From NCBI RefSeq assembly GCF_949628265.1, contig NC_088787.1, positions 12,948,501 through 13,012,500 on the forward strand: a stretch of 64,000 bases of DNA, given 5' to 3'. This DNA comes from Cloeon dipterum (Eukaryota; Arthropoda; Insecta; Ephemeroptera; Baetidae). The first letter of the stretch is position 1. Each line of letters starts with the position of its first letter. The notes beneath the pieces were generated by a model. That model saw only the letters and a list, made by a program, of their open reading frames with translations. It made no database searches and was not told where the DNA came from. A program made the position numbers and the translations under genes. Below are positions 47,012-52,078 of this stretch, piece by piece.

Positions 47012-48165
<1,154 letters not shown>

Positions 48166-48724: not shown

Positions 48725-50875
48725 ATGCCGAGACCGAAGAAGGCCGACGCACCAGCCGCCGAGAGCGCCGATAAAACCGAGGAAGCCGCCGCAGCGACCG
48801 CCTCCGATGGAGAAGCCGCCGAAACGGCTGCCCCCGCGAAGAAGCGTGGCCGCAAGCCCGGCGTCTCCACGAAAAAGCCCGCCGAGCCGACGAGGGAGAA
48901 AATCCCTCGTGGGGCCAAGGCCGCCGCCAACATCAAGCTGGCCGAAAAGGACGAAACGGAGGTAAAGCCGAAGAAGGCTAAGCCTGCTGCCAGTGGCTCC
49001 GGAAAGGGCCGCGGAAGGCCCAAGAAGGTGGAGAAGGAGGAGGTAATAATGACCCACGCTTTTCATTAGAATTTCAGGATTTTGAATTATTTTTCCTTTT
49101 GTATCAGTCTGCGGATGAGGCAGAGGAGAAGGAAGAATCCGAGGAGGAAGAGGAAGAGGCCCCCTCCAAGAAAGCTGTAAGTTCCAGGAGAATAATGCTA
49201 CGAGATTACCAAAATTATAGCCTTAGAATTTGATGATATCGATCTGCATTCTAGTTGCTAAATTTAACTTATGCATAGTAATTGGCTGGAAATTGTTGCT
49301 TTTGCCCTATTTTACTGCATGCCAATCTAATTCCGTTTTTGAAGAGACAGCCTGATGCTGAGATTAGCACCGATGAGGATGATTCTGAGGAGGATACTAC
49401 GCACATTGCAGAGAAACCCCAGAAGAAAACTGGCAACAAGAATGTTAGTTTTTAATTTTTCTAATTGATATTATTCTCGATTTGAAGAACAGCCTTGATA
49501 GATTTATTGATTGAGGGTAGAATTAATAATTTTCATGTATAGCAACAGGCTTCAAAGAAGGCAACTCAGAAGCAAAGTGATGAGAAAGTGGACAAGAAAT
49601 CCAAGGGAAATAAGAAGGACAGTAAAGTAATAATTTTAGTGCATCTTGTGAAGAGTCTGCCTTATTGTTTATAATATTACATAGGAAGAAGAAGATGAAG
49701 ATGATGGATATGAGCCAGACAGTGACCAGGTAAGTTATGATTGAATTGCATGTGTACACTACTGAATTTCATTCACTTCTTTTAGTCTTGTTACATTATG
49801 TTGATTTTTAGGCGTCGAATGATGGAGTAAAGGAAGTGGACAAGAAAGGTACCAAAAAGGATTCGGGCAAGTCTGCTGTTCAGGTGCATGACCTAGTATT
49901 TAAGCGCTTCATTTCATAACTTGGTGACTCTAAGGGCAAACCCTCCAAGGCCGGTACAGCCAAGGAGTCTACCACTGCTGGCAAAGAAGAACAGCCTGAA
50001 GAAACTTCTGACCAGGAAGTCGCAGATGATGACAAGAAGGCTGCACCCAAGAAGGTTTCGAATGCTCTACGCTTTGATTAATTTTATATCTTTGCTTCTT
50101 TTTTATATGTGTCTAATTGCATGTGTAAATCCATTCAGAAAGCAGCAGCTAGGAAGGGCCAGAAACAGAAGGAGGATGCCGACAATAAGGTTTAATTCAA
50201 ACTGCACTTGATCGAAATTTCTGCACGCTTTGCTCAATTTATTTCCAGTCAATTAAAAAATTAGATGTTTGTTAATTGCTGTGCATTTCTCATTTCGTTG
50301 AATCTTGTTTTGCAGAAGAAGGAAGACTCTGAGAGTAAGACTTCCAACGGATCATCCACTAACGGCGCTAGCAAGGCCAAAGGCAAAAAGGCTGTTGCTG
50401 CTGAAGCCTGGTAATAAACTAGCATTATCTTTTCTGGGAATTGATAACAAAATCAGCCAGCTACGTGTACAGAGCTCATTATACCTTATTTTAACATTTG
50501 ACCGGGAGATTTTAGTAATTTTAGGTTTAGTGCAGCGTTGAATAAATTAAGGTCAAAATTTTGGATACCTAGATCATCTGAAATTAAATTGTTACTGATT
50601 GCTGAATTTGTTTATCTTCGTGTTGCAGCAAATCATGATCAGTATTCAAGCGCAAAGCGCTGGAGATCGGCAGCGTTCTGCAAGAAACTTATCCCGAGCT
50701 GGAGTTGTTGATCAACGAGGGCAAAGCACCGCGCCGAGGCGCCTTCGAGCTTGAGCTAATCCTCGACGGCGAGCGCCACCCACTTTGGAGCGGCATCAAC
50801 AAGGGACCCCCGCGCAAGGATAAGTTTCCAGAACCTGCCGCCGTTTTGAACATGGTGAACAAACTCCTCCAGTAA
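48725..50875 (+). CDS. SelenoH: Selenoprotein H with long AT-hook N-terminal region (UGA read as selenocysteine)
   Basis: This is a nuclear redox selenoprotein of the SELENOH/BthD family. Exons are 48725-49042, 49108-49176, 49345-49443, 49543-49626, 49685-49729, 49812-49883, 49935-50054, 50139-50189, 50316-50410 and 50629-50875, totalling 399 residues with Sec. The first 317 residues are low-complexity, acidic and lysine-rich, with AT-hook words RGRKPG and GRGRPKK. The last exon completes C-K-S-U, the C-x-x-U redox motif (TGA at 50636-50638). It continues SVFKRKALEIG, GKAPRRGAFELEL and LWSGINKGPPRKDKFPEP to TAA, all matching vertebrate SELENOH. A SECIS follows at 51133-51215. Human SELENOH also has a short AT hook, but this N-terminus is far longer. 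Standard gene callers would end it at 50414 or 50638. Confidence 0.93.
50636..50638 (+). other. Selenocysteine codon (in-frame TGA)
   Basis: The TGA follows C-K-S and precedes S-V-F-K-R-K in one frame, at the site where SELENOH proteins carry Sec. Seventy-eight conserved sense codons follow before TAA. Confidence 0.92.
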
Positions 50876-51132
50876 TCCGAACACAAGAGCAACAACAACC
50901 AGCACTATAGCCATGTATGCCCTGGCAGTGGAGCGCCTCTACTCCCATCCTCTTCTCTAAACACCGATCAATTTTATCAGAATCTCGACTCGCAAAGTAC
51001 AAAAGCATTTCGTTCAGCAATCTTCTCGGCCGATTCAAAGTCTCGAAACATTTCACGCTCTATTCACCATTTTCGGCCCAAATCCGCGTTTCGTTTTCGA
51101 GTTGGGGCGGGCGAGACGGAAAGGAGCTGTCA

Positions 51133-51215
51133 CACTGGCGTGTCGATCTCATGACGGCCGGCAGGGAAAGGCCCCGCGGCCTCCCGGTCGGCCTGACGCA
51201 CTCGCACGGCCAGTG
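51133..51215 (+). promoter_or_regulatory. Type II SECIS element in the selenoprotein H 3' UTR
   Basis: Helix I is CACTGGC/GCCAGTG (51133-51139 with 51209-51215), extended by GTG/CAC. The quartet strands are ATGA (51151-51154) and TGA (51194-51196). Helix II pairs 51156-51167 with 51182-51193 at 11 of 12 positions. The unpaired AA is at 51168-51169, and a mini-stem GGCC/GGCC (51170-51173 with 51178-51181) makes it type II. It starts 495 bases after the UGA codon, well beyond the minimum spacing. Confidence 0.93.
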
Positions 51216-51581
51216 GACGGTTCACTTTCATCTCCTGCCACTGCTAGGGTATGAAGCATTTTAAACAAGTTTTTTAAGTACAATGATGTGTGAGTAGGAA
51301 CTGTTCAGTGTCTATTATCCATAAACTGATGATCTTCAGCTGAATAAGTGCGTGCAAGCTGAGAGGTTTTTAAAAAAAGCGATCAGTACTTGTTCTAAAT
51401 GTCAATTTGCTCACTTCTGCATTCACATCTCCTCCGTTTGTTCTGTGTGCGCGCGCCCCTATGAACTTTTCTTCATTTGTTTGAAATAAGATTATTGATT
51501 GCAACCAGCAGGCGCATTTTATATGGTCTTAGAGTCTAGAATTAAATGATTAGTGTATTTTCTCAATTTCATTTGCACAAA

Positions 51582-51587
51582 AATAAA
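51582..51587 (+). terminator. Poly(A) signal of selenoprotein H
   Basis: AATAAA about 365 bases after the SECIS, the first good signal downstream. Confidence 0.5.
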
Positions 51588-52078
51588 ATATTGTATTAGT
51601 GAAGTCAAAAATGTTGCGATTCATTACGAATAAAACCCTTCAAAAAAATTGTATCCTCTAGAATTTTTATTAGACCTTGAGAAGAAACCTCAATAAGTAG
51701 TGATCTTGGTTAGATCTCCAAACGCTTTTTTTTATCCAGTGAGAGTCATTGATGAACGTTTATCCAATTGCTTGGTGTCTACTTTCGGCTACAGATTTGT
51801 TCTATCCATCGATATTTACTCGCATAAACATAAAAGTTGATTTAAACAGACTTTGCTGCCAGTGAAGACGCCAAAATCGGAGATAGCAGTTGAAATATTA
51901 TATAATTATTTGATCGAAAAGTACAGGACGCTGATTGACTGAAGCAAACGCGCAATTCGCGACACCTGTGATCTGATTGCAAGCTATGACGCGCCAGCCA
52001 ATCAGCGTCGAGGATTTTTCTAGCAAAGAATTTGAAGTGCTGTCTAGTCTACGATTTGAATATTTCATTCCAATTTAT

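Follow-up and report, generated by a model that had tools for sequence, protein, structure and literature searches.

Whether an in-frame TGA ends the protein or encodes selenocysteine (Sec) is the question raised by a predicted AT-hook gene in the mayfly Cloeon dipterum, located in a stretch of 64 kb that was analysed as a whole and is here called the window. Judged from the sequence, the UGA at codon 319 is very likely to be recoded as Sec, and the complete model, a functional ten-exon mayfly selenoprotein H (SELENOH) gene with a recoded UGA, is very probably correct. Two observations go beyond chance, namely the homology after the TGA and a SECIS-like element in the 3' UTR. The gene is thus a new SELENOH of an already known family.

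Gene model of the SELENOH locus

The coding sequence has a length of 1194 nt, is divided into ten exons at 48725-50875 on the plus strand, and contains one in-frame TGA when translated. The TGA at 50636-50638 is codon 319 of 397 and completes the stretch C316-K-S-U319, after which 78 codons are open. The exon boundaries were picked by eye so as to keep the frame, which gives the following features:

48725-49042, plus strand: exon 1, with start codon, 106 codons and GT donor
Within exon 1, plus strand: AT-hook-like motifs KKRGRKPG and KGRGRPKK, identified by eye
49108-49176, plus strand: exon 2, boundaries by eye
49351-49443, plus strand: exon 3, boundaries by eye; an alternative acceptor at 49345 leaves the frame unchanged
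49543-49626, plus strand: exon 4, boundaries by eye
49685-49729, plus strand: exon 5, boundaries by eye
49812-49883, plus strand: exon 6, boundaries by eye
49935-50054, plus strand: exon 7, boundaries by eye
50139-50189, plus strand: exon 8, boundaries by eye
50316-50410, plus strand: exon 9, boundaries by eye
50629-50875, plus strand: exon 10, which completes Cys316 and encodes K-S-U and the Rdx domain; TAA at 50873-50875
50636-50638, plus strand: in-frame TGA, putative Sec codon 319, at nt 8-10 of exon 10

The two motifs in exon 1 resemble the AT-hook consensus by eye, and exons 2-9 (49108-50410) encode a linker rich in Lys, Glu and Asp. All nine introns have GT-AG ends, and each contains an in-frame stop if read through. 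The splice signals are weak in some of them, notably in intron 6 (51 nt, GTGCAT...AAG). The lengths of exons 1-8 are all divisible by three and the exons are joined in phase 0; skipping any of exons 2-8 (within 48725-50189) would leave the frame of the redox domain unchanged. Intron 9 divides the Cys codon (TG|C) of the C-K-S-U stretch, and exon 10 begins in phase 2.

The first-pass annotation, made from the sequence of the window, had described an in-frame TGA in a C-K-S-U stretch with 78 codons beyond it, and had quoted three blocks (GAFELEL, LWSGI-KGPPRK and KFPEP), all of which are present. It also placed the last exon correctly at 50629-50875, but the frame runs from 50630, and the frame-1 translation from 50629 is nonsense. 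Without recoding, the product ends at residue 318 (the TGA), or at residue 316 (TAA at 50412-50414) if intron 9 is retained as well, in agreement with the two protein ends named earlier (50414 or 50638). A standard gene caller is expected to end the protein ahead of the conserved domain, and annotation errors of this kind are described as widespread in vertebrates (PMC12822975).

Exon 10 and the SECIS could also represent a separate short SELENOH transcript, likewise recoded, that begins with a first exon of its own, the AT-hook exons then being part of a different gene. Among 4778 candidates, no relatives of residues 1-110 were found at E <= 0.001, and vertebrate SELENOH is a protein of 14 kDa (PMC10650576), both of which favor two genes. 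However, intron 9 interrupts the Cys codon in the phase that is needed, the frame continues unbroken from exons 1-9 into exon 10 (with boundaries chosen by eye), and SELENOH has been described with an AT-hook (PMC10650576). We therefore consider separate transcripts very unlikely and retain the single ten-exon gene.

The surroundings of the gene were inspected by eye. A minus-strand gene that resembles a short-chain dehydrogenase/reductase seems to start near 48165, about 560 bp from SELENOH in a head-to-head arrangement, and further upstream on the plus strand, to about 46700, there are exons resembling myo-inositol oxygenase.

Homology of the domain after the UGA

The length of the open frame is in itself no evidence of coding, since 1113 of 20000 base shuffles of the 77-codon stretch after the TGA also stay open (the shuffled stretch, 50640-50872, is one base short of the frame). 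When U is entered as C, the translation of exon 10 matches the Pfam family Rdx (PF10262) with 25.4 bits against a cut-off of 22.6 (E 1.7e-5). The protein of 397 residues as a whole, again with C for U, matched none of the Pfam families, perhaps because of its biased composition. In a protein search (database of 5.8 billion), six of seven candidates had E <= 0.001, with values from 2.5e-21 to 2.8e-11. These six relatives are 41-72% identical to the mayfly protein across 65-86 aligned positions, and the alignment of the seven sequences contains 16 invariant columns. The frame beyond the TGA is conserved in these six proteins, and the lack of such conservation, which the first-pass annotation had named as a refutation, does not apply. 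One of the relatives (P0004) is a UniRef entry from Anopheles melas named Selenoprotein H, with 51% identity over 78 aligned positions, which together with the Rdx match of the last exon agrees with the identity suggested for the gene.

The relatives differ at the Sec site. P0006 has C-K-S-C where the mayfly has C-K-S-U, and in P0005 a W stands in place of Sec, as if a TGA had been translated with a different genetic code. The entry from A. melas lacks the C-x-x-U stretch in its model, and P0001 begins only past the point that corresponds to the TGA. At the Sec site, the public predictions for two of the relatives (A. melas P0004, and P0005) thus appear to be broken.

A sequence search against the PDB returned MIEN1 (C17orf37) alone, at a non-significant E-value of 0.89. 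For the 81 residues that follow the Cys, AlphaFold2 gave a model with a mean pLDDT of 78.5 and the order helix-strand-strand-strand-helix. No second SELENOH or Cys copy was found in the genome, where there was one further match with an E-value of 0.447.

The SECIS-like element and the selenocysteine machinery

In eukaryotes, SBP2 bound to a SECIS element recruits eEFSec and the Sec-tRNA to the UGA. A SECIS-like element, which is an addition to the first-pass annotation, was found in the predicted 3' UTR of the mayfly gene:

50876-51600, plus strand: predicted 3' UTR, from a scan for polyA hexamers; first AATAAA at 51582, end approximate
51133-51215, plus strand: SECIS in the form with an extra upper helix, from the Rfam alignment, a motif scan and folds
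51133-51146 and 51202-51215, plus strand: helix I, with bulges
51151-51154 (ATGA) and 51194-51196 (TGA), plus strand: SECIS core
51156-51167 and 51182-51193, plus strand: helix II, one mismatch
51168-51169, plus strand: unpaired AA
51170-51173 and 51178-51181, plus strand: upper helix

The core starts about 275 nt past the TAA and 515 nt past the start of the UGA, ahead of the AATAAA at 51582. The Rfam model SECIS_1 (RF00031) aligns in full to 51142-51210 with 23.6 bits, where the gathering cut-off is 35, and the match has an E-value of 0.16 (2401 bases against 4227 families). At the gathering threshold, Rfam gave no match in the whole 64-kb window, and a genome-wide SECIS_1 search in which 133 of 3197 candidates were scored did not list the element at 51133-51215. 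The 3' UTR also contains, in its GC-rich part, a mechanically called ORF of 115 codons (50917-51264, plus strand), which overlaps the SECIS.

A motif-plus-fold scan of the 64 kb gave a single site on the plus strand, at 51151-51196 with -27.4 kcal/mol, and two weak sites on the minus strand (-7.0 and -5.0 kcal/mol); the scan was written after the element had been spotted by eye, and the choice of motif was thus not blind. Sixty shuffled versions of the window, scanned on a single strand, contained 0.72 sites each, one of which was at or below -15 kcal/mol, the best being -17.0 kcal/mol. Among 5000 shuffles of a 750-nt UTR, 14 had any site and none reached -15 kcal/mol. The stricter control, local shuffles of the 95-nt SECIS, provides weaker evidence: with a z-score of -2.33 and 3 of 200 shuffles as stable, the fold is only moderately better than the shuffled sequences.

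The genome-wide search also located a second SECIS at C3:35012487-35012551 on the minus strand, with 32.5 bits (Rfam cut-off 35) and an E-value of 0.0106. It lies directly 3' of a small gene with four exons by eye, a hydrophobic N-terminus and the stretch S-G-G-U. With U as C, its product has a weak match to Sep15_SelM (E 0.0092, below the cut-off), and two other families score similarly (E 0.026 and 0.046); with X there is no match. A search of this SelM-like ORF against the PDB gave nothing of note (best E 1.1, unrelated). From its sequence, the gene may be a divergent SELENOM. A third SECIS-like match, at C3:4047733-4047798 on the minus strand, had 23.3 bits and a genome-wide E-value of 3.42.

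The Sec machinery was searched for in the assembly of 190.1 Mb in 10 contigs, exon by exon and with scores for the best candidates only. The first-pass annotation had pointed to tRNA-Sec, SBP2, eEFSec and SPS2 as parts to look for, and the first three are clearly encoded, as is SepSecS; absence of the machinery, another of its named refutations, therefore does not apply. The tRNA-Sec has 75.3 bits and, according to ARAGORN, the anticodon TCA; of four matches it alone exceeds the cut-off, the other three being located on tRNA-Ser genes. ARAGORN found no genes in the 64-kb window. SepSecS is represented by one locus with five matches, all five of which exceed the cut-off. Domain III of eEFSec scored 107.3 bits, and the hand-joined protein matches eEFSec in the PDB with an E-value of 4.4e-173 and is 97% identical to a protein of Cloeon dipterum and 79% to one of Neocloeon triangulifer. 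Its long exon is identical to the C. dipterum protein at 244 of 250 positions, and the other pieces, some of which cross introns, at 65-100%, which places the genome with C. dipterum or a very near relative. The RNA-binding domain of SBP2 was identified with a protein query (E 1.3e-6, 35% identity to the query), and the hand-joined neighboring exons have SECISBP2 as their best PDB match (E 1.4e-18), followed by a ribosomal protein (5.5e-6). The SBP2 locus was not among eight L7Ae matches, which resemble ribosomal and RNP proteins by eye. The candidate for PSTK is weak: a P-loop kinase at C5:18145829-18145972 scores 25.5 bits where the cut-off is 382, and a hand-joined piece matches the KTI12 family with an E-value of 0.0034, below the cut-off.

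As for SPS2, one SPS gene is present, yet no convincing SECIS could be assigned to it. The locus, at C4:4621473-4623739 on the plus strand, has four matches to the selD model, none of which is over the family cut-off, and when its own protein was used as the query, all five matches fell at the same locus. A search for the AIRS family returned this locus and one other, the translation of which is by eye GART, a purine enzyme. The N-terminus of the SPS protein matches selenide water dikinase 1 (SPS1) in the PDB (E 2.3e-15), and no Pfam family was found with its 74 residues. At the Sec/Cys site, the gene has a TGA followed by GGG TGC, the read-through hexanucleotide described after SPS1-UGA by Mariotti et al. 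(PMC4561486). Within about 2.7 kb past the SPS stop, neither Rfam nor a strict scan detected a SECIS, and a relaxed scan gave a single weak candidate (-3.7 kcal/mol). A second SPS2 gene may have been missed or be absent from the assembly, or else a single SPS gene has a dual role. The lone SPS gene found bears on the timing of the split between SPS1 and SPS2 in insects.

Several results count against the SELENOH model: the SECIS score below the Rfam cut-off, the failure of the genome-wide search to list the element, its modest advantage over local shuffles, the lack of a Pfam match for the whole protein, the SPS gene without a convincing SECIS, and the weak PSTK. The SECIS score and the SPS gene would fit a UGA that is an ordinary stop, which gives an AT-hook protein of 318 residues and makes the redox domain a decaying remnant after selenoprotein loss, as has happened to selenoproteins in several insect orders (PMC2500217, PMC5330540). 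Against this, the domain is open for 78 codons and shares its 16 invariant columns with six relatives, the 3' UTR contains a SECIS-like element that has the core motifs, and tRNA-Sec, SepSecS, eEFSec and SBP2 have been kept in the genome. An ordinary stop is consequently exceedingly improbable.

We judge it just as improbable that the SELENOH UGA is read through with an ordinary amino acid, independently of selenium, as proposed for SPS1-UGA of Hymenoptera (PMC4561486). The GGG-TGC after the UGA of the SPS gene, the motif of the same study, suggests that the genome may use such a route somewhere. However, the UGA of SELENOH is followed by TCAGTA rather than by the hexanucleotide, its 3' UTR contains the SECIS-like element, and a C-x-x-U redox site would be pointless with another residue. 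Since the main parts of the machinery are encoded in the genome, recoding of the UGA as Sec is the best reading.

Proposed expression of the gene and comparison with known systems

Splicing, Sec insertion, nuclear location and the redox function of the SELENOH product are inferred from the results above. The ten exons would be spliced into the SELENOH mRNA, and at codon 319 the SECIS-bound SBP2 would recruit eEFSec with the Sec-tRNA(UCA), so that selenocysteine is inserted. A C-x-x-U site would then begin the Rdx domain, putatively of thioredoxin-like fold, and the long basic and acidic N-terminus with its putative AT-hooks should put the protein on DNA in the nucleus.

A further and rather doubtful suggestion is that the gene is a switch set by selenium, with two stable nuclear proteins as products. 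At low selenium, or if intron 9 is retained, a stable AT-hook protein of 316-318 residues without the redox domain would be made, and at high selenium the full protein. Because the UGA is placed 8-10 nt into the last exon, termination at this codon would occur with no exon junction beyond it that could set off decay, and a stable short protein is thus possible. The charged linker could moreover vary by exon skipping, as the eight phase-0 exons are divisible by three. With its long N-terminus and last-exon UGA, the gene lends itself to a test, in a laboratory insect, of whether selenium switches its expression between two products.

With this locus, a SELENOH gene, a SECIS and most of the Sec machinery are described for a mayfly, an early-branching winged insect. 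Among the papers listed in a limited literature search, none was seen to name mayfly selenoproteins, which does not prove that there is no such paper; selenoproteins are mentioned in a review of edible aquatic insects (PMC8700862).

Among known systems, SPS1-UGA of Hymenoptera and Paraneoptera (PMC4561486) is likewise an insect gene in which an in-frame UGA is passed, but the mayfly SELENOH differs from it in having a SECIS-like element and not the hexanucleotide. SELENOW, SELENOT, SELENOV and MIEN1 belong to the common thioredoxin-like Rdx family with C-x-x-U (PMC10650576; PF10262). Unlike the match to MIEN1, which was non-significant, the blocks after the site in the mayfly protein match the entry named Selenoprotein H.

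Published descriptions of SELENOH give a nucleolar protein of the Rdx family that has an AT-hook (PMC10650576). In Drosophila and in mosquitoes, SelH is among the known selenoproteins (PMC2500217), and the Drosophila protein is named SelH/BthD (PMC2375036). The mayfly gene resembles SELENOH in its C-x-x-U, its Rdx domain and a SECIS in the 3' UTR, in the GAFE, LWSG and KGPPRK-KFPE blocks, and perhaps in an N-terminus that looks AT-hook-like by eye, the AT-hook of SELENOH being taken from PMC10650576. It differs from its relatives in the 315 residues before the C-x-x-U, which are encoded by nine exons and rich in K, E and D; P0005 and P0006, the two relatives in which the site is visible, have 54 and 31 such residues by hand count. 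The trait that sets the mayfly protein apart is thus this unusual, 315-residue charged N-terminus.
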